A stretch of 64,000 nt of DNA from Isoetes taiwanensis (Eukaryota; Streptophyta; Lycopodiopsida; Isoetales; Isoetaceae), in contig JAJEKV010000006.1 of the NCBI GenBank assembly GCA_021234155.1, positions 9,391,003 to 9,455,002 on the forward strand, given 5' to 3'. The position numbers and the translations under genes are program-made. This document shows, one piece after another, positions 3,031-64,000 of this stretch. Numbering within the stretch: the stretch's first letter is position 1; each line of letters starts with the position of its first letter. The notes below the pieces were generated by a model. That model saw only the letters and a program-made list of their open reading frames with translations. It was not told where the DNA came from and searched no databases.

Positions 3031-3945
3031 AGTTGACGAGCAAGAGACAGCGGAAGAGAAAGAGGCCAAAGCATTGAGCAAGCTCCCAAAACCTATAGCA
3101 AAGTTGGTGAAGGAATTCCATGATTTATTCCCAGATGAGATTAAGCAACTTCCACCCTACAGAGGAGTCGAGTGTGAAATAGCACTTGAGCCAGGAACTA
3201 AGCCAACAAGCAAGGCGCCCTACAGGATGTCAACCCAGGAGTTGACAGAATTGAAGAAGCAATTGTAGGAGTTGCTAGACCTAGGGTTTATAAGACCTAG
3301 TGTCTCTCCATTTGGAGCGCCAATACTCTTCGTGAAGAAGGATGGAAGCCTAAGGATGTGCATTGACTATCGTCAATTGAACAAGCACACCATCAAGAAC
3401 AAGTATGCCCTACCACGATCGGATGATCTGATGGATCAATTGCAGGGAGCAAAGGTCTTCTCCAAGATAGATTTGAGGTTAGGTTATCACCAAATCAGAA
3501 TCAAGGAAGAGGACATCCATAAGTCTGCATTCAGGACGAGATATGGGCACTATGAGTTCACAGTGATGCCACTTGGGTTGTCCAATGCTCCAGCAACTTT
3601 CATGAGGCTCATGAACGATGTTTTCCGTGAATTCCTAGATTCTTTCATCATAATTTTCTTTGATGATATTCTAGTTTACAGCAAGTCCCTAGAGGAGCAT
3701 GTCCAGCACTTGAGAAAGGTGCTTGAAAAGCTAAGGAGGCATCAACTCTTTGCGAAGCTATCCAAGTGCCACTTCGCAACAGAAAGAGTAGAGTACTTGG
3801 GGCATGTAATCCAGCGGAAGGGATCTCCACCGACCCTGCAAAGATTGAAGCAGTAATTGATTGGCCGGCACCAAAGAACACACATGAAGTGAGGAGCTTC
3901 CTCGGCCTAGCAGGGTATTACAGGAAGTTTGTCAAGAACTTTCAT
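3031..3945 (+). pseudogene. Ty3/gypsy reverse transcriptase, 3'-truncated
   Basis: The RT N-terminus is seen as FHDLFPDE and YRGVECEIALEPG (3115-3205). A TAG at 3266 interrupts it, then the palm and fingers follow: [19 protein letters not shown] block (3308-3342), [12 protein letters not shown] (3358), [13 protein letters not shown] (3460) and the catalytic loop [11 protein letters not shown] (3657-3690). The usual YxDD is FFDD here, so both catalytic Asp remain. A frameshift near 3820 moves the connection region ([14 protein letters not shown], then FLGLAGYYRKFVKNF) to another frame. The copy ends at about 3945 before RNase H. Confidence 0.9.
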
Positions 3946-10885: not shown

Positions 10886-12335
10886 TCAAGTGAAGACTAT
10901 ATATTCAGTTAATGTGCGGCGGATCTCCACACCCAATTCATATGGGTCTGGATCAGTGTTCGCACGTGGTTCTTCTGCTTCATCTGCCTCATTCTCCTCA
11001 ATCTCTTCTTCTTCTCCTCGTCTTATTCGCCACTGCCTTACTTGCTCCAACTCTTCCTCGATATCTGCCTCACCAATATCAATAAGCAGATTATGGAGAA
11101 TACAACATGCGTGAGCAAGAGTTGGAACATTCTCCGGCTTCATCTTAAGTTTCGTATCGAGACATCGGAATTTGCACTTTAATAGTCCAAACGCTTGCTC
11201 CACATATAATCTTCCTTGTGCCAACTTCTTATTGAAGATGTTCTCTAAATTCAAAACAAATCGCATTTAGAACATGAATTGAATTTAAACAAAAAACATA
11301 AACTATTAATCAATACCAGCATATGATAAAAGTTGAACATCCCCTTCATATGGTGTGATCAACCAAGGGGAGCAATGGTAGCCTTTGTCTCCTAAGAAAA
11401 AGGGTCTCAATTCTCTATGGTCGATGCTCATGATAGGACTTTGCAAGATTTGACGTTCTTGAATCCTCCTTGCTATCCCTGAATTTCTTAACACTCGTAC
11501 ATCATGCACTGATCCCGGGTACCCACAAAATATATCTAGAAACCTTCTTTTTGTATCAACAATAGCTTGCATGATAATGCTAAATCTACATTTCCTATCA
11601 TAATAATCCAATCCAGCAGGACCACATGGTTGCAATATTTCAAAGTGCGTGCAATCTATGGCACCAGCTGAAAAGGGTTTATACACAATTAGTTTTTATT
11701 GTCATTCCATCAAGCAAAATATGTAACTTGAAGTAGAAATGAATTATGATTGAAATACCTGCATTTGGAAGCTTCGATACTTGTTGAAACCCAGCTATCA
11801 CTTCTAATAATTGGTCACCTGTTGGAAATACTATCTTATGTCCAAAAACTTTCACAATGGCTTTGCATACTTCCATGACGATCATATGAGCCGTGCTCTC
11901 TCCAATGCCAAACTTTTCAGATAGTGCCAGGTAATCACAACCTTTGAAAAGCTTGTAAAGACAACAAGCTACACGTACATTAACGGGAACGGCTTTTCTA
12001 TAATGTGTATCTTTTTTCTCAACCTCATCCTGGAGACTATTGCAAAGAAACATGAACGTAGATTTCTTCATTCTAAACTTTTTTTGCCATCTATGATCAT
12101 CATAGTATGACATCAAGAATCGGTCAAACCATGTAAAACTTCTCGGTTCCACCCACCATCTACCTTCAGTAGAAGCATCCGCACAAAAAATCTCCACATG
12201 GCCATGTGATCTCAAGACATTCATCTCGTCATCTACTAAACGCTTCAAGGAATTGTCCTCTTCTTGTGTCATGAACAAATTAACATACGAACCCATAACC
12301 ATCATGATATCATGCGCTTGTTGATCGTCTTCCAT
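10886..12335 (-). CDS. PIF/Harbinger DDE transposase (HARBI1-like)
   Basis: Three exons on the minus strand join in frame with GT-AG introns: 12335-11759, 11667-11317, 11244-10886 (1287 nt, 428 residues). An in-frame ATG 24 codons upstream (12407) is an alternative start. The N-terminal part has the helix-turn-helix region seen in HARBI1 (KKSTFMFLCNSL; ALSEKFGIGESTAHMIV). The catalytic acids are visible: Asp in GAIDCTHFEI, Asp in FFLGDKGYHCSPW and Glu in YVEQAFGLLKCKF. The C-terminus is acidic. No stop or frameshift was found, so it may still encode an active nuclease. Confidence 0.9.
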
Positions 12336-12407
12336 GTCACTAAAACACTGCACAATTAGTGAATTTGTTAGTAGAAGCTTATCATTGGATGATCCATAAT
12401 GCAACAT

Positions 12408-12665
12408 TCAACAATAAAAAAGCTCATTCATATCATAAAAACTTATTCAACAATCATAAAAGCTCATTCGAAGCTTATCATTGGATACAAAAATCATAAA
12501 AGCTCGTTCATATAGATTTAAACTTTGAAGACCAATTAACATGGAAGAGTTTTCAAAATTTCAAAGTTTTAAATCTCTGTTCAAATCAAAGTTTTCAAAG
12601 TTTTCAAAGTTTCAAAGATTTCTATTCAAATCTCTCTCCTCCAATGGCCATTCCATAGCGGCAAT
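12408..12665. other. Spacer between transposase and ORF1
   Basis: AT-rich with short internal repeats (AAAGCTCATTC and TTTCAAAGTTT types). It should hold the transposase promoter and the ORF1 3' end. No gene. Confidence 0.45.
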
Positions 12666-13435
12666 TCAACCTACAAAAACGACATTGTGTTAAAAATAGT
12701 AAAATTCTCATATGCACATTTAGATGATCAACGAAGAGGCAAACCTGAATTTGGTGGATGAAATGATGCTTCTTTGGTTGAAAAGTAGCTGCCCATTTTC
12801 TCAAACGCCCCCGCCATCGCTCCCACTAGAGTACGTTGTAACTCAAGCTTCTCTTTTTCCACTTCTAATGTTTTTGCAAAGTGGCTTTCCATCCTTTCTA
12901 TCATTTCCTTGTTATTTTCTGCCATCGTCTTGGATAAAGAGTTAGTATTACTCGCTCTACGTTTTCCAGACGAGGCTTCTTCATAATACCATGGGGATGG
13001 TGATCCCCTCACTAGTACCTCTACTAGTGTCGGCCCGTGCATTGGTTCCACATTAGGCCGGCTTGATTGAAAAGAATCAAACATATTATAAATGGCCTCA
13101 TCAAGAATAGGGAGGTTAAAGTTTTTCTTTTCACTCCTTGACAAAGAAAAGTACTCTGGCATCCCTGTCCTCTTGCTAAAATCATGGATTGTCTTATATT
13201 CACCAATCAAATTTTCGTATTTAGCACGACATCCATTTGCATCTCTATCAGTATAGCCATTTTCTATCATTCTATTAGCAATCTTTTTCCATCTAATAAT
13301 GGCAGATTCCATTTTGTCACGCGCTGATGATGCCTCTAACATCATCCATTCCTCCTTTTTGAGCTCAACAAGGAATTTGGTCTCTTCAAGAGACCAATTT
13401 CTTGATCTCTTTCGTTTCGAAGATGGTGTAGAGGT

Positions 13436-13764
13436 ATTAGGGTAAAAGCATGTTAGGGTGTACCACTTTTGGAACCTACAAAAGTACATACACTAGGTAC
13501 TTCAGAACTGGGTACTTTTTCATTTTTATTTTCATTAAAACTAGTATAAAGGTCTAAAATAAAAGTCAAGGACGCATTAATATTCAAAGTTAAGATAAAG
13601 ATCATGCTACCGGAGACCAAAATATATATAAAAGTTCTAAAATGTAACTTTTATTGAGATATTACACGGGTACCCAGTACCCAGTCCTGGGTACCTTTTT
13701 AGGTACTTTTTTGGTCACTAAATAATACTTTTTAAGGGACACCCTAACATGCTTTTACCCATTA
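13436..13764. mobile_element. MITE with perfect 22-bp TIRs and ATTA duplication
   Basis: The 22-bp ends at 13440-13461 and 13739-13760 are perfect inverted repeats starting GGGTAAAAGCATG. ATTA flanks both sides (13436-13439 and 13761-13764). Inside are a second pair of motifs built from GGGTACC and TACCCAG. No coding capacity. Removing it and one ATTA restores the ORF1 exon. The 4-bp duplication does not fit the 3-bp Harbinger or 8-bp hAT rule, so the superfamily is open. Confidence 0.85.
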
Positions 13765-18199: not shown

Positions 18200-18449
<250 letters not shown>

Positions 18450-27082: not shown

Positions 27083-30060
27083 TTAAATTACCTTCGTCAT
27101 AGCATATTCTGCCAGTTCGGGCTCACCATGGATGTTACACGCTCCAAGAAAAGCCAGCCAAATTACTGCATCTGGGTTAAATGGCATTGCAGCAATAATG
27201 TCCTTTGCCTCATCCAACCATCCTGTACGGCCAAGCAAATCAATGATGCACGCATAATGATCACAAGTGGGCTCAGTCCCTGGAACTAGAGACATGGATT
27301 CAAAAAAATGATGGCCTTCATCCAATAAACCAGCATGGCTACACGCTGTAAGAACTGACAATAAGGTAACCTTGTTCGGATTCCAGCCCTGGTCTAACAT
27401 TTTTGCAAATAGCCTGATACCCTCTTCAGCATAACCATGTTCAGCATATCCAGTAATCATCACAGTCCACATAACTACATCAGGATCTGGAATTTTGTTA
27501 AAGACTTGCCGCGCATCCTGAATGCTTCCACATTTTGCATACATGCGAACAAGTGTACTGCAGATAAAAACATCCAGATCCATTTCACCATTAAGGACAT
27601 GAGTATGGATGCGCTTACCACAACCAAGAGCACCGATATTAGCACATGCACACAAAATGTCGATATAAGTGAGCTTATTTAGATTAAGACCATCTTGTTC
27701 TAATCTTTCAAATAGCTTAATGACCAAGTCATTGTCACCACTCTTCATATACATTGAGACTAACACTGACCATGAAAACATATTATATACAGCCATACTT
27801 TCAAACACCCGACTAGCATTTTCGAAGGCTCCAATCTTAGCGTACATGTCCACAACCAGGTTTTCCACGAAAACATCTACCAGCCCTGACTTAATGAAGT
27901 TGGAGTGAATGTGTTTACCTGATGCAAGATCGCCTGCCCTAGCACATGCACTTAAAACAATAATATACGTCAGGTTATTGGGATATAAATCCTGTTCCTG
28001 CATGTGCTTAAATAATTTCACCGCCTCATTGCCATTTGAACTTTGACCATATGCAGAAATCAATGCTGTCCAAAGCACCGTGTCTTGTGTAGAAATTCCT
28101 TCAAATACCTTGCATGCATCATCGACACTTCCACATTCAGAATACATATCAATTAAAGCACTTCCAACATGGTGATTCACTTCTACTTGACCTTTTAAAA
28201 GGCTGGCATGAAAACACCTCCCATATATTATGTTTTCCAAAGAAACAAATGCAGAAAATATATCAACATATGCCACGTTATCAGGTCTCACCCCATAGTG
28301 TTGCATTTCTTTGAAGAGCATGTAAGCGATTCTTCCATGCCCATTCTCAGCATACCCTGCAATTATTGTAGTCCATGAAATCACATCTCGTAGTGGTATA
28401 GTCTCCAACAACGCGTGTGCGTATGTAATATTTCCGCATCTAGAATACATGTTTACAAGAGCATTTGTGACAAGAACATCATGCAGAAATTGGGCTTTGA
28501 TTACAGTGCCATGGATATGCTTTCCCCAAGCCAGAGAGCATGCATTGCCACAGGCCGTAATAGCAGTGACGTATGTGCATAAGTCTGGATCTATACAATG
28601 TCTACGCATTTGGGAAAATATGCCAATAGCTTCATAATCATACCCATTAGCAAGGTGTCCTGAAATTAGACTATTCCATGAGCCAACATGTTGCACTGAT
28701 TGGACAGCAAATATATGGTGTGCATTCCACAGGCTTCCCCAATTGGAATACATACCAATAAGAGCATTACTCACATAGAAATCTGACTGCAATCCAGATT
28801 TCACAATACATGCATGGGCCCACTTGCCCCATTCTACACTGGGGCAGCCCCCTGCTATACTTACATATGTAACTTTGTTTGGAATTGAGCCATACTGAAG
28901 CATTTGTTCAAATAATTCGATAGCTCTCTTCTTATCCCCGTGCTCTACATGTCCTGAAATCATTGCAGTCCATGACACAATATCTCGTTTAACCATTCTG
29001 TCAAAAATTTGGCAAGCCGCCATAACAAACCCACATTTCAAATACATGGCAATAAGGGCATTTAATATGAATATATCTAAATTGAACCCAGATAAAAGAA
29101 GATCAGCATGAAGATGCTTTCCGAGATTTATTAGTCCCTTAATAGAGCATACACTCAAAACGTTGGTGTATGTAACTTCGTTTGCCATCTTATCATGTTG
29201 CACTTTCCTAAATAATTGAAAAACTTCATTTTCATCCCCATACTCAGAATATCCAGTAATTAGAGTATTCCAGGAGACTATGTCACGTATAGATGATCTG
29301 TCAAACACTTGTACGGCCATCTCGAGACACTTGCATTTCACATACATCTGAACAAGTGCATTTCCAACAAAAACATTTGATTTTATTTGTGCCTTCAACA
29401 GATGGACATGAACATATTTGCCCTGACCTAGAGACCCCGCAGTTGAACATGAACATAAAATGCTGACATAAGTGACTTCATTTGGCACGGAATTCTGCTG
29501 TAGCATTTCACCAAAGAGCTTGAATGCTTGATTCAAATATCCATGGTTCACGTAACCACCAATGATCATTGTCCAAGTAAACACATCTATTTCAGCCATA
29601 TTGTCAAATAGTTGACTTGCATCCACTATACTTCCACACTTCACATACATATTCAGGAGGCAATTTGCCAAGAAGGTGCTTGGGATAAGGGATGATTTGA
29701 TAATGTGAGCATGCACTTGACGCCCCTCTATCAGAGCCTTTTTTTTTGTACATACTTGCAACGCAGAGATGTAAGTTTCTGTCAAATTTCGTATCTCAGA
29801 TAATGCAACTCGATCACACAAATAACGTTCATGCAAGGTCCTAACTCTAACGGAATCCTCCCTTCCATCCTTTGTTGACCATGTGAACCTGCTCACATTT
29901 TCATTCAATTGCACAAAAGTTTATCTAGAATTCAACCAAATAACATTAAATTCAAACATTGAGGACGTAAAGAATACCAGTTTGTGCTTCGGACTGGAGA
30001 TAGACAACTATGAAGCTGAAGCCCAAACGCAGCCTCCGCTGTTATGGACATGGATTCCAT
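27083..30060 (-). CDS. PLS-class pentatricopeptide repeat protein
   Basis: Exon 1 30060-29978 and exon 2 29888-27083 join in frame (TG|G) across an 89-bp GT-AG intron. ATG 30060 follows an in-frame TGA; exon 2 alone has no ATG until about residue 89, which fixes this start. The product is about 962 residues with around eight P-L-S repeat sets, each with an NALVxMYxKCG-type helix (for example LLNMYVKCGSIVDASQLFD; LVRMYAKCGSIQDARQVFN). It ends at AEYAMTKVI just inside the E motif, with no E+ or DYW domain. Such proteins bind organellar RNA and guide C-to-U editing or processing. Organelle targeting is inferred from the family and not clear from the N-terminus. Last codons KVI-stop may be a premature stop or an unrecognised donor (AAG|GTAATT). 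Confidence 0.88.
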
Positions 30061-52088: not shown

Positions 52089-53540
52089 TCACAGGCTGCA
52101 GATGGGAGTTTGAAGAGTCTCTTCTTTTTGTTCTTCATCTCCAGAATTAAATAACCTCTCTGCTCCAAGTTCTGCCATGCGTGCAAGAGGTTTCTTCAAA
52201 TAGTCACTATGACATTTTAAACCTTTCAATGCCATATGACATTTGATCAAAACATCAAACTGCTTTGCTGCATATCTTGCAATTATTGATGTCCAAGTAA
52301 CAATACTTCGAACTGGCAGGTTGTTAAATATTATCCGTACCTCTAAAAGCTGCCCATATTTTATGTACATACTGATCAAAGCACTATCAATATCCTTCTC
52401 AAATTCTTTATTGGCAATTTGAAGATGTATTTTAAGGCCCCTATCTATGTCTCCTATCCTACTACATGCTTTCAAGCCAGAGGCATATATAACAGCATTT
52501 GGAGATATTCCATCAACCTGCATCCGCTGAAAACATTCAAGGGCTTCCACAACAAGCCCATTTTTGACATATCCTGAAGTGAGGGCAGTCCATGATATGA
52601 CACTTTGAACTGGTAACTTTTCAAAGATAACCTGTGCTCTTGACGAGATTCAAATTGGAATACATGTCAATTAAAGCATTCCCAACAAATATATCCCTTT
52701 CAATCCCCTTTTGTGAAACCTTAATATGTATTTCTCAGCCCTCCTCAATAGCATTACAAGCTTTGAGCATGCAAACAAAAGTAGAAGCATTTGGTTGGAT
52801 ACCCGCAAATTCCATTTGTTTAAATCAAATCATGCTTCCTGCCCATATCCTTATTCTACATATCCATTGATCAATATGGTCCAAGATAGGACACTCTGCA
52901 TCTGTAGTTTGTCAAAGACTTCATATGCCTCTGCAAGGCATCCTTATTCTACATATCCATTGATCAATATGGTCCAAGATAGGACACTCTGCATCTGTAG
53001 TTTGTCAAAGACTTCATATGCCTCTGCAAGGCATACATGCCAACCAAAATGCTGCTAACATATTGATCAATTTTAAGACCACTTTTTCGAATGTGTGCAT
53101 GAATTCTCTTACCCATTTCCATATCATTCACCCTAGCACAAGTCCTCAGCAAAGCCATGAGTGTATAACCAGTTGGGATTCATGCTATCTTCTTGCATGT
53201 TTTGGTAAATATAGAGAGCATCTTTTTTTGTTCCACATTCAAGGTAGACCAATACAAACAGAAGTTCAGGAATGCTCATCCGATAGAGCAATCTGACAAA
53301 AGTGTGTTGTGCATTAGAGACATTGCCACATGCCACAATTGCAGGCACATTATAATTTCCAAGAGTTCTATGAACTTCTAATCCATAAGCTTGCACATAT
53401 ATACACTTAGGCAATCCTGAATCACCATGGCCTAGTCAGGGCTAGCTATTATGTTGGAAAACATGGCTGGAAAATCAGGCCATTATATGCAAACATTATC
53501 ATTTGGAGTCAAATGTATATATATTCACCAATGCATTTGT
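52089..53540 (-). pseudogene. PLS-class PPR pseudogene
   Basis: Repeats can be followed on the minus strand but across three frames: TNALVNIY (about 53545), LRTCARVNDMEMGKRIHAHI (about 53140), AEAYEVFDKLQMQSVLSWTI (twice), and the last long frame 52550-52089 with FQRMQVDGISPNAVIYASGL and LISMYIKYGQLLEVRIIFNN. Stops and frameshifts are frequent and no E or DYW end is present. A 93-bp tandem duplication lies inside. It adjoins the 3' side of the SDH-like pseudogene without a spacer. Confidence 0.82.
52847..53032. repeat. Perfect tandem duplication, 93-bp unit, inside PPR pseudogene
   Basis: 52847-52939 and 52940-53032 appear identical. The unit is 31 codons, the length of an S-type PPR repeat, and each copy carries the same TAA (former CAA), so duplication followed or carried the stop. 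Confidence 0.9.
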
Positions 53541-58870: not shown

Positions 58871-59480
58871 ATTAACTTTTTAGAATTGCATGCTCGAATA
58901 TTTTTTCCCTATGTAGACAATTATATCATAAAAGCTTTCCACCAGTAATATCGGAACTTCACAAAGGTTGGCTAAAGAGGCCATTTTCCTTTCTTGGCAG
59001 TTAGCTTCTAGAATTATGAAATTAAAAAGACAACAAAAGAAAAGTGCTACTTTTTGCAACCTGTTCTAACCACCCATTTCTATAAATGTCATTACTGGGT
59101 GGATTCACGCTATAGTGGATCAGTTTTGGTGTCCCCCATGTCCCCCCCCAAATAGCTTAAAAGTATAGCTTGTATTTGTGGTTTAAGAAATGCATTTGTG
59201 GTTTGAGAATTTGTATAACATTGATTACGTTGATGCCTTTTCCAGTAACCGATGAGTAATTCTAATAATAACCAACCACTTCATTAATGCTGGAGGGAAT
59301 TTTTTCAAATGCTCAAACGGTGGAAACGTAGAGGGAGTTTGTTCCTCATTCTTTTGCTCAGTATTATTTTGGTAAGTCTACAAAGTGAAGCACATTTCTG
59401 AAAAAATGGAGGAGAAAGATGTATTCTTAGATATGGCGATGAAGAAATCCGAACATCCGTAATGAAGATCCATTTGTTAG
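58871..59480. other. AT-rich spacer
   Basis: No gene recognised. Confidence 0.35.
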
Positions 59481-60399
59481 AGTGAGTTTGAGATCATTGT
59501 TGAAAGAAATTCAACTGGGAAGTTTTAGATTGTGGTTTAGAACATGCAACTATTTCTAGTGTCAATCTTGAGAATGCAGATGATATATCAATCGGTCATG
59601 ATCCTAGTATTGTGGACAATACTATAAAGAATATCAAGAAGAGAAAAAAGAGAGATACAGAGCAAGAACGTCTGAAGAAACAAAGACAGAGAAAAAAGAC
59701 AAAAAGAAGCTAATGAGGCATTGGTGAAGATTGAGGTCAAGATGGGTTGGATAAAAGTGGTGCAACAAAAAGGAGAGTAGTGTTAAACACCGCCAATTCA
59801 TTCTTGAGGCAAACAAAAACAATGAATCTCCGTGATTAAACGAGAAATATTGATTGATGTACTAGAACATAAAGCTATGGAAGAGATAGTTGGGGATCTC
59901 TTGAAGAATCTGGAAGCAAAAACAACCATAATAGATAATATCGAGATTCAATCCATATCATGAAGCAATCAACTAGTCTAGATTGTATGGTCGCTAAAAA
60001 ATCTTGTTTAGCAAATGGCAATAGGCAATGAAATGTAAAAGCAAATGAGTAAAAAATGGGAAAAGTTCTTGATGTTCATCCAAGAAATTTGATCACGCAA
60101 AGAGAGACAAATTTGAGATAAATTGCAATTCAGAAAAATGGGTGTACTATAGAAGGGGAAGAAGATGTGATTCCATTTCTGATTCTCATCATTGCTTTGT
60201 ACAGATTTTTGGATTTCTAATACTAGGGTCTCTCCAAACACAAAGGATGTGAAATCTAGGAGACTTGAAAGAAATATCAGAGAAGAGCATGCTACACATT
60301 ACTTAGAGCAAAGCCAAGTTAGTTACTACTCTATTATCTATCTACTCTTTCAAGCTTGATTTGATCACAGCTTTTCTCCGGATCCTCTATAAATGTATT

Positions 60400-60820
60400 A
60401 TAGATTGTGTATTGTAGATAGTATATTATAGTTTTAGATCCAAGATAGATTGCATTATGGTTGGAATAGATTGTGGTTTTGGATTACATTGTGGTTAGAT
60501 TAAACTGTGGTTCAAGTCATATTGTGATTCGTTGCATTGTGGTTTAAACTTGGTTGTGGTTGTAGATTACATTGTGGTTCTAGATTATGGTTTTGATTAG
60601 ATTGTGGTTTTGGATTGGAATGTGGTTTTTGGTTTCAATTTTCTTGTGATTGTGGTTGTGGATTATATTGTGGGTCTAGATTATGGTTTGATGGATTGTG
60701 GTTTTAGGTTAGATTGTGATTTTAAGGTTTCTAATGGATATTGTTTTATTTTGTGGTTTGGAATTTCATTATTATAGTTTGAGGTTCATGTTTGCGGTTT
60801 GGGGTTTGAGATTGATAATC
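60400..60820 (+). repeat. Degenerate GT-rich minisatellite
   Basis: Many variants of TAGATTGTGGTTTTGGATT with variable spacing; C is nearly absent from the plus strand. It lies within the 59.5-62.7 kb remnant, between its N-part and Cys-rich part. Confidence 0.7.
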
Positions 60821-62633
60821 AACTATTGTTTTGTTCTTAGATGCAACTCTATAAAGCTTTCAAAGCAAAACATCCAAATGTCAAAGTTGGAGCTTCAAAT
60901 TTTCAAAATTTGAAGCCGTGGTTTGTAGTGAAGCTAGCGTAGTATAACACTTGTTGTTGCATACATCATGTCGCTTACAAATGCCGGGATGGTTTAACTA
61001 AATTGTGAAGAAGCACTCAAAGTCATGTACTTGTGGAGTGCAAGATTTTTACGTACATCGCTGATCTTTGGAAATGTATTGTTTGCCGAAGGGTGAGATT
61101 GATGAATTCTATAGTAAGGATTGTCTTGACGGTATTTTGTAGTGAGTGTGGGATAAAGAAGTTTGAAATCTGCCCCAAGGAATTAGAGAGTGAGGAGGTT
61201 GTGAAATGGGAGTACATCGACTATGAACATGGAGGTGTGGATAAACGTGGAGAGCCTAAGAAAGTTTTGAAACACCAATACAAAGAGACCACACCAGCAA
61301 AGGCTAATAAGCAAACTCAAAGACAAAGTTGGAAAAATTTCCCTCCACAATTTCAAATACAAATGGCAAGATAAACAGGTTTAGAAATGCTCGATAATCT
61401 CCTTCGATGTCATAGTGTCGGGTAGATTTTATGGAAAATTACACATTGAAAGAGAGAACACAGTGCAATCTCAATACCGGACAAGCGTGCGGTGACCATT
61501 CTTGTCCACATTACTTATCATGTGGCTAAGAATGGTGAAGTAGTAAAAGAAACACATTATTATATATCGATGACCGCAAACATGATACCTTATTCGCATG
61601 CGGATTGCTTTAATATGCACTTCAATTATATGGAAGAGCAAGGACCAAACCACGTAGGCCTTCGGGTTTTTCCGATGGTGCCGCATCACAATTCAAAGCT
61701 GCAAGGCCATTTTATTTTATTGCTAGATACTCTTATCGACTCTAATTCATATGATGTGGAATTACTTTGGTTCAAACCACGGAAGGGAAACATGATGGCA
61801 AGGTCTGCTGAATTAAAGAGATGGATCGAATGGTCCAACTCCTATATCCCGATACTAAGATAGAGAATGCACATGATATTGTGGAGGTCGCCAAGGAGTT
61901 ATTTTAAATGCACGCTTTCTAAAGAGGAACCAAAAACAAAAAAAAAAGATATTAAAAGATTTTTTGGGAAGTTAAAGCAGGAGAAGTCGATAGGCGAAGG
62001 AATGGGGAGCACATACTTGAAGGATACTCAAAAATTCATAGTGTAATGCCAAGATTCAAATTTGGGATCAACAACTCAATTACGTGTTCAAGATTCTCAT
62101 GCTTTTGTAGTTTTTGTTTAGATGAACATTGGGATAGATGCGAGAATACGGCATATGTGAATAAGTGGGAACTGGTGGAAATTGAACCTCGCTTCTTCAT
62201 CTACTTGTGATGCAATTGAGGTTAGAAAGTCACAAAGGCCCTTATATTCGTGTGTTAATATTGTCGACCGGTCGATGTGGAGATTACTTTTAGAAGTGGC
62301 AAAGACAAAAACAACCACGAAGGGGATGACTTTTGGTTGCTTGCATGTACAAGGGAGAAGTATGTAGTGGAAAAGACTTCAAAGATAATGGAACGTGGTT
62401 CTTAAAAGGTGAAAGTATATTAGAAGGAACTTACTTCAAAAAATTCCAAGTTCAAAGAGAGGTTATGAATTATGTTCTCAAGAAGGAGTCAAAAGGTTTA
62501 CTCTACACAAGTATGTGGTGTTAGAATTCCACTAATGAAAGGAAATTATGCTATCAAAGGACATCCTCAGATTTCACCTTCTAGATCCTAAGGATGAAGA
62601 AACGGTCAGAGCCAACTTACCACCGCGGTTGTC

Positions 62634-62736
62634 GGATGATGATGATGATGATGGTGATGGTGATGGTGATGGTGATGGTGATGGTGATGGTGATGGTGAT
62701 GGTGATGGTGATGCCGATGGTGATGGTGATGGTGAG
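62634..62736 (+). repeat. (GATGGT)n hexanucleotide tract encoding Asp-Gly
   Basis: (GAT)n shifts into (GGTGAT)n of about 14 units with one GCC interruption, ending in GAG TGA. In frame it gives an acidic Asp then Asp-Gly tail on the preceding ORF. Confidence 0.85.
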
Positions 62737-62739
62737 TGA

Positions 62740-63700
62740 ACACTTGTTGTTGTGAGCAGATGATGATGATGAACAGATCAAAGCCATCCGGTTGTCGTGA
62801 TGATGATTTTCATGTATTGATGTTTTAATAGATAATGATGATGATGATGAGTTGATATATCTTGTATTCTTCTACTTGTGTTTTCTCAGTGCTTGTATGA
62901 TAATGTTATTGTTTAGACTTTATGTTATTAATGTTTCATTCATAACTAACATATGTTTAAAAGGTGTGTTGGTTTATTCATTTGATAGATATTGAATGAA
63001 TGGGTGTTAGGTTCAAATCCAAGGATGTTAAGTTTGAATTTTGATAATTTTGGATCTATGTCTTACATGGTAGAGTAGTCCAATACAAAAACCCTAAACC
63101 TAATATCCCACACCAATATCCCACATGCCAAAGAAGCAAAAGTAGCATGTGTATATAAGATGCACCTAGAAGTGATTAAGTATCATGTGATTGGGCCTTG
63201 TTGACGAACCTTTGGAGACATCCAAGGGGATGGACCTGGACTTGGCGTGGGGATGCCCTACAATTAGTCGAGCCACATTGGTCTCGAGATCTAACGACCT
63301 CGAATCGGATATAATTCGAGGGTTCTCTTTAAACGAAATTTCGTCACGGAGATTTACGGAAGGCAGAGGCCGAGATAGGTCCCGCTCACATGATCTAACC
63401 TCTAGGGTGGCCTCCTAGAGGGTGTAACCTCGAGGGTGTATAGTATAGTGTCTTAGAGGTCTTAGAGGGTTGTTGTGAATGATATGCTGTTGTGAATGAT
63501 ATGCTTGTGGGGGTGTTGTGAATGATACATGTGTTGACAATTGAATTTACAGACAATGATGGTGAATACATCCGAATACATCCGAGGCGAGACATGGAAC
63601 ATGGAGGCGCTTTTTAGGTATGTATAAAGGTATGTATAATCTACATCCAAAATGGTACCATGCATAAAATCCCAAACAACAACTAAAAAGAAAAAAGAAA
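62740..63700. other. Spacer with short duplications
   Basis: GTTGTGAATGATATGC recurs three times around 63470-63530. Small ORFs on both strands lack motifs. No gene. Confidence 0.4.
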
Positions 63701-63704
63701 GTGA

Positions 63705-63862
63705 GTGAGTGAGGTAGTAGTGAGATGGGGGCGCTTCCCCCTCGAGAGAGAGGTCGATGAGTGAGGTGGGGCGCTTCCCTCGAAAGCAGATGAGTGAGGT
63801 GAGGTGGGGGCGCCCCTCGAATCGGTGAGGATGAGTGAGGTGGGGCGCTTCCCCATCGCCCA
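63705..63862 (+). repeat. Imperfect tandem repeats, about 35-bp unit
   Basis: GATGAGTGAGGTGGGGCGCT followed by TCCC(C)TCGA recurs four times with indels. GC- and G-rich in contrast to flanks. Function unknown. Confidence 0.75.
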
Positions 63863-64000
63863 GAGGAGGGACTTTGCAAAGATTAGACTAAGTCCTTAGA
63901 GAGGTCCTTAAAAAGTGTCCTTAAGAAAATGAACTCCGTAACTCCAACTCCAAAAAAAAACAAACTCCGACTAACTATACTATACAACTCAAAAACGCCA
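63863..64000. other. End of window, nothing recognised
   Basis: Short A-rich sequence with no recognisable feature. Confidence 0.3.

Follow-up and report, generated by a model that had tools for sequence, protein, structure and literature searches.

What is coded by the frame-broken sequence near the right edge of a 64,000-nucleotide stretch of DNA from the quillwort Isoetes taiwanensis? The stretch, here called the window, lies on contig JAJEKV010000006.1 (C1067:9391003-9455002), and coordinates are window positions unless prefixed C1067. A preliminary description, made from the letters alone, had noted protein blocks that keep their order across frameshifts, and had taken them for the remnant of a Cys-rich, RNase-H-like family without a name, either transposase-like or a domesticated nuclease. 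With a probability of roughly 0.88, we conclude that a copy of a cut-and-paste DNA transposon begins at 59097 and that its left part fills the window from there to 64000. The element has a transposase predicted to be of RNase-H type, with three catalytic-type Asp residues (Asp-Asp-Asp, DDD), and a second gene on the opposite strand. It probably belongs to the Sola superfamily.

A three-frame reading of 59480-62739 located the blocks on the plus strand in their described places, scattered over three frames; SDDRKHD is itself broken across two, with YYIS in one and DDRKHD in the next. The blocks are beyond chance, since the fragment 61450-61860 has 153 matches in the plant's own genome (best 150 of 1884 candidates scored; best non-self match 65% identical, E = 1.3e-42) and relatives carry the blocks in one frame and in the same order. 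Among these relatives, L126 and L127 can be read without a stop for 548 and 536 amino acids, and L029 has most of exon 2 in one open frame of 583 amino acids. The gene consists of two exons on the plus strand (59406-62739, Table 1). Its start is the ATG at 59406 rather than 59480. The stretch free of blocks is explained by the intron. Further conserved stretches are LYKAFKxxHPxVKVG, NTCCCxxH and HNFxYKWQ, together with HGKGEHDG, which is clear in the relatives only. The product, roughly 900-940 amino acids long, begins with an acidic part and a basic stretch, followed by an LLDVHPRN part, a Cys-rich segment, the core, a CxCxxC motif, a C-terminal part and an acidic tail coded by a TGATGG repeat. 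Both the Cys/His-rich segment and the C-terminal Cys motif are probably zinc-binding.

The borders of the element were found in the family of copies to which the window copy belongs (family A). The left border is sharp in 12 copies, where it reads GGGTGGATTCACGCTATAGTGGATC, and lies at 59097 in the window copy. Two copies traced rightward end in CCATACCATGAATCCACCC. The two ends form a perfect terminal inverted repeat (TIR) of 11 bp, GGGTGGATTCA/TGAATCCACCC, and the element thus begins with GGG and ends with CCC. The left-end pattern occurs at 88 places in the genome with up to three mismatches, and a reversed-pattern control at none. Among the matches listed, the right-end word stood without mismatch at 52 places and with one mismatch at 37; the total of 350 with up to two mismatches (control 3) is inflated by a near-identical word of another repeat, which made up 9 of the 11 two-mismatch rows listed, and only the exact and one-mismatch rows were counted.

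From the places listed, 26 left/right end pairs of family A were picked and their flanks read. An exact target-site duplication (TSD) of 4 bp is present in 24 of them. Over all pairs 99 of 104 letters match, whereas permuted pairs average 30.2 and never exceed 46 (2000 permutations), and among the lengths from 2 to 10 only 4 bp rose above its permuted maximum. By eye, the 24 exact duplications share no sequence. TACT flanks the window copy at either end; the copy occupies C1067:9450099-9463769, a length of 13,671 bp. The preliminary description had suggested looking for terminal repeats and duplications around 59.2 and 62.8 kb; the left end is at 59097, and the right end, rather than near 62.8 kb, lies 8.8 kb past the end of the window. 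The 26 elements measure 7.6-19.5 kb, with 12 of them at 11.0-11.45 kb. An undisturbed element is about 11 kb long, and the extra length of the window copy is probably a nested insertion after C1067:9459379.

A word only 2 letters off the family-A right end, the 19-mer GGGTCGATTCATGCTATGG, has 1331 occurrences in the genome with up to one mismatch (control 0). Among the matches listed, many pairs in the same orientation stand about 11.5 kb apart, and two stretches that bear it (L129 and L130, C172:162560-162720 and 174100-174260) are direct repeats, as in a long terminal repeat element. This position in direct repeats about 11.5 kb apart led to its rejection as the element end of another family.

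Twenty copies were fetched, 15 of family A and 5 of a second family, B; the two are about 68% alike in DNA. Further families are present in the same genome at 46-65% amino acid identity, and a search with P0001 gave 82 matches (best 75 of 12535 candidates scored).

The transposase was not recognized by sequence: nothing was found above the curated cutoffs in Pfam-A, NCBIfam and PHROGs, nor any credible match in the PDB. No match named DUF7869, a family considered as a possible relative, turned up either, though the presence of that family in the Pfam copy searched was not checked. Phages, viral contigs and prokaryote contigs yielded no relatives, the matches that arose being chance on translation, and a profile search of five prokaryote genomes, which shows little, gave no match. 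A model of the core, made from that of L127 with 23 further rows, has a mean predicted local distance difference test score (pLDDT) of 63.8 and a predicted template modelling score (pTM) of 0.66, and its secondary structure, β-β-β-α-β-α-β-α, follows the RNase-H order. A pLDDT of 68-84 is reached in the blocks that hold strands 1-4, helix 1 and the last helix. The preliminary description had pointed to two conserved Asp contexts and to SDGxxSQFK; three Asp residues (D53, D138 and D179, of DFAENY, SDG and HDG) proved to be conserved in all covering rows save one at the second position. In the predicted fold the first lies in strand 1, the second just past strand 4 and the third just ahead of the last helix. 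The third acid is taken as the Asp of HDG because L127 has a different residue in place of the Glu that comes after HDG elsewhere in the alignment. The core is thereby predicted to be an RNase-H fold with a DDD triad. Of 50 PDB neighbours listed by Foldseek, 38 are nucleases or of Argonaute/PIWI type, which we take to have the RNase-H superfold, 9 are hexokinases, glucokinases or exopolyphosphatases, and 3 are others. The 12 viral models with E <= 0.001 comprise 4 named ribonuclease H, 4 nameless and 4 other proteins.

Selection on the coding sequence is evident between families. In six between-family pairs of transposases the proportion of silent sites that differ (pS) is 0.71-0.85 and that of amino acid-changing sites (pN) 0.15-0.36. 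The silent rate (dS) is saturated in five pairs, and the ratio of amino acid-changing to silent rate (dN/dS) in the sixth is 0.07; a close pair within family B, with few changes, has a dN/dS of 0.39. Close to saturation at silent sites, the families differ only modestly in protein, and selection has therefore kept the protein through their spread.

Beyond the right end of the transposase gene, family-A copies carry further coding sequence in the opposite orientation: a Ulp1-like part, a HAD-like open reading frame (ORF), a coiled-coil-like part and one more part of no assigned kind. In the window copy these lie just past the window end, at window-equivalent 64,665-68,376. The Ulp1-like part, found in family-A copies only, matches Pfam Peptidase_C48 with 23.8 bits (curated cutoff 20.7, E 4.5e-05; L045:8175-8504, minus strand) over profile positions 133-185 of 217 only. 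The HAD-like ORF bears the motifs KKLLIFDFNGVLGK and FDIAIWxDFD, which we take for those of an FCP1/HAD phosphatase; its family-A and family-B versions share 42% identity (E 2e-32; dN/dS 0.25). From its sequence, the second gene looks like a Ulp1/SUMO-protease-like part joined with an FCP1/HAD-phosphatase-like part. A genome search with the HAD-like ORF gave 144 matches (best 125 of 3348 candidates scored), which merged to 104 loci. For a test of linkage, 153 transposase loci were typed from the listed matches of 61450-61860 and of P0001. Of the 104 HAD loci, 54 have a listed transposase within 12 kb, where uniform placement would give 0.23. In 53 of these cases the HAD locus is on the opposite strand and downstream of the transposase, at a median distance of 4.6 kb. 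The exception is a rearranged copy on C1060. In that copy (L034, C1060:8604500-8614400) the left part has one orientation and is joined to an inverted right part, and the HAD ORF is on the transposase strand. A second HAD-like match (28%) was seen at 12454-13068 on the minus strand of the joined stretch L036+L051, immediately beyond where the C124 element ends on the right; HAD-like relatives may therefore exist outside the elements of families A and B.

Which known element is this? Sola elements have a DDD transposase, 4-bp TSDs and TIRs of 11-1124 bp, and are mostly 2-9 kb long, some exceeding 15 kb; they are present in Physcomitrella and uncommon in flowering plants (PMC10741241). A Physcomitrella Sola1 is named in a table (PMC9033089), and SOLA elements are more numerous in Azolla than in Salvinia (PMC6786969). 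In a word search of the main text of two Isoetes papers, neither Sola nor DNA transposon was found (PMC8566536; PMC10541799). The quillwort element has the same duplication length, exact in 24 of 26 family-A pairs with no other length, a TIR at the lower limit of the Sola range, three conserved Asp residues in a predicted RNase-H fold, and a seed-free host, here a lycophyte in place of a moss or ferns. Its 7.6-19.5 kb fall within Sola sizes but exceed those of most Sola elements. On an opposite-strand gene such as its Ulp1- and HAD-like one the excerpted Sola descriptions are silent. Other types of element were compared, and three of them, Kolobok, Zisupton/Kyakuja and EnSpm, were rejected on their TSD or ends. 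Kolobok shares a eukaryotic DDD/E transposase and a 4-bp TSD and has a TTAA-specific TSD (PMC9587614); TTAA was found in one of 24 exact TSDs. Zisupton/Kyakuja (KDZ) elements have TSDs of 8 or 7 bp (PMC12730594); here an exact 8 bp occurs in none of 26 pairs, and 7 bp in one that also fits 4 bp. The ends of EnSpm/CMCT are 5'-CA..TG-3' in most cases (PMC12730594), compared to GGG..CCC here. Mutator-like elements can carry a Ulp1-like protease (PMC2836005), a feature in common, whereas their TSDs are 7-12 bp (PMC10741241), and the transposase has no Pfam match to Mutator-type models.

Ginger1 has both a 4-bp TSD and, in some families, a Ulp1 domain (PMC2836005). That domain is at the C-terminus of the Ginger1 transposase itself, whereas here it belongs to a separate gene on the opposite strand. 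According to the same source, the TSD is CCGG or CCGT, the ends are TGTNR, the TIRs are 40-270 bp and the integrase is of Gypsy type. Neither CCGG nor CCGT occurs among the 24 exact TSDs, the quillwort element runs from GGG to CCC with a perfect TIR of 11 bp, and a Pfam search of L126, L127 and L128 matched no integrase model at E up to 10; a Ginger-type element is very improbable. Purifying selection on the protein would also fit a single-copy nuclease gene of the host that was domesticated and later decayed. Against this stand the copies, which are many and dispersed and share their ends and target duplications; they make it barely credible, and the gene is part of a multi-copy mobile element.

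A more serious alternative is a new DDD superfamily apart from Sola, with 4-bp duplications and a regular Ulp1/HAD partner gene. It is in keeping with the lack of any Pfam-A or NCBIfam family at cutoff and of a credible PDB match, and a literature search, at the level of listings and passages, found no paper that links Sola to a Ulp1 or HAD domain. Duplication length, TIR length, size range, the DDD triad and occurrence in seed-free plants are all those of Sola in the excerpted accounts (PMC10741241; PMC6786969; PMC9033089), which renders a new superfamily unlikely. The preliminary reading as a transposase-like family with an RNase-H-type fold is supported by the predicted fold, the conserved acids, the inverted repeats and the duplications. 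The description of the family as nameless stands with respect to Pfam-A, NCBIfam and the PDB, and probably fails with respect to the type of element. It is similarly doubtful that a two-gene DDD lineage exists, either separate from Sola or as a deep branch beside it, in which SUMO-protease-like and CTD (C-terminal domain)-phosphatase-like parts are regular partners of the transposase. Were that so, the element would gain expression or repair by editing the modification of host proteins.

The reading as a DNA transposon, probably of Sola type, has its own weak points, which count against it as follows. The placement in Sola is a comparison with published descriptions. The core model has a pLDDT of only 50-55 for its second helix and for strand 5, and the model of the full exon 2 failed (mean pLDDT 39.6). 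Foldseek TM scores are at most 0.45, and the best PDB neighbour, also the sole one with E < 0.001, is a hexokinase; hexokinase, glucokinase and exopolyphosphatase domains share the RNase-H topology. The ends and TSDs are those of family A, where two pairs are imperfect (C117 with no duplication, C1087 with 3 of 4 letters), and no right end was found in family B. The HAD-like ORF matches NCBIfam HAD_IIID1 weakly (E 0.033, far under the cutoff), with no Pfam match and no credible PDB match. Most of the 54 linked HAD loci belong to copies of a single family and do not count as independent events; the other 50 of 104 have no listed transposase within 12 kb, which is no proof of absence since the transposase loci listed are the best matches only.

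Transposition most probably proceeds as follows. The transposase would bind the 11-bp inverted ends, and the DDD core would excise the element with two metal ions. The 3' ends of the element would then be joined to target strands 4 bp apart, with no evident sequence preference, and gap repair would leave the 4-bp duplication. The Ulp1-like and HAD-like parts of the second gene might help transposition or counter host control. A protein family of a seed-free plant that neither Pfam nor NCBIfam names proves to be a transposase, and its ends, TSDs and core model can be used for annotation, in which such genes are easily taken for plant genes. The linked Ulp1/HAD-like gene adds a case of a DNA transposon carrying enzymes that may alter host protein modification.

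Is the window copy as decayed as it looks? Over about 2.5 kb of coding sequence it departs from the majority of nine copies by 111 substitutions and 43 indels, a tally in which stops made by substitution are not counted separately. Of the indels, 36 are of 1 bp and none exceeds 2 bp; compared to L029, 42 of the 43 are not multiples of three. For another copy, L042, the counts are 55 substitutions, 3 short indels (1-2 bp) and 3 longer ones. Indel load does not track substitution load among the copies, and some copies with about half as many substitutions carry fewer short indels. These figures would suit long-read assembly errors in a repeat, and the published assembly was made from Nanopore reads; it was also polished with Illumina reads (PMC8566536), and of 22 one-base deletions just 8 fall within homopolymers. 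That part of the frameshifts are such errors, a matter of the state of the copy and not its identity, is a tentative view to which we give somewhat less than even odds. The term remnant is borne out only in part, since the indels may include assembly errors.

Table 1. Features of the transposon copy within the window (window positions).
Feature	Position	Strand	Remarks
Left target-site duplication TACT	59093..59096	.	Partner TACT after right end at C1067:9463770, outside window
In-window part of transposon	59097..64000	+	Whole copy C1067:9450099-9463769
Left terminal inverted repeat GGGTGGATTCA	59097..59107	+	Element end GGGTGGATTCACGCTATAGTGGATC to 59121; 88 genome places, 12 family-A borders
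Exon 1 of transposase gene	59406..60317	+	Acidic start, basic stretch, LLDVHPRN and SNTRVSPNTKDVK part; several indels; uninterrupted in L038:2751-3707 (+)
Intron	60318..60840	+	GT..AG; mostly TTGTGGTT/TAGATTA-type repeats; same phase-0 place in family B (L046)
Exon 2 of transposase gene	60841..62739	+	Includes stop TGA; mostly one open frame in L029 (583 amino acids)
Cys/His-rich segment	60940..61170	+	NTCCCxxH, CxC, CxxC, CxxC
First catalytic-type Asp codon	61425..61427	+	D of DFMENY (DFAENY in most relatives); D in 14/14 covering rows
Second catalytic-type Asp codon	61674..61676	+	D of SDGAASQFK; 16/17 rows
Third catalytic-type Asp codon	61794..61796	+	D of KHDG (HGKGEHDG in relatives); 16/16 rows
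C-terminal Cys motif CSRFSCFCSFCLDEHWDRC	62085..62145	+	Probably zinc-binding
C-terminal part with GESILEGTYFKKFQVQR	62330..62630	+	Beta strands only in low-confidence full exon-2 model
TGATGG repeat coding acidic DG tail	62637..62735	+	Repeat reading

The window holds other features unrelated to this copy. Near its left edge, at 3269-3853 on the plus strand, is the reverse transcriptase (RVT_1) of a retroelement, and remains of a PIF/Harbinger-type element, with DDE_Tnp_4 pieces and a Myb/SANT-like ORF, occupy 10889-13492 on the minus strand. An open frame of 945 amino acids full of PPR repeats is present at 27086-29920 (minus strand), with a second PPR piece at 52092-52649 on the same strand. 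There are 44 perfect copies of TCTA at 18274-18449 and a perfect 93-bp tandem duplication at 52847-53034.

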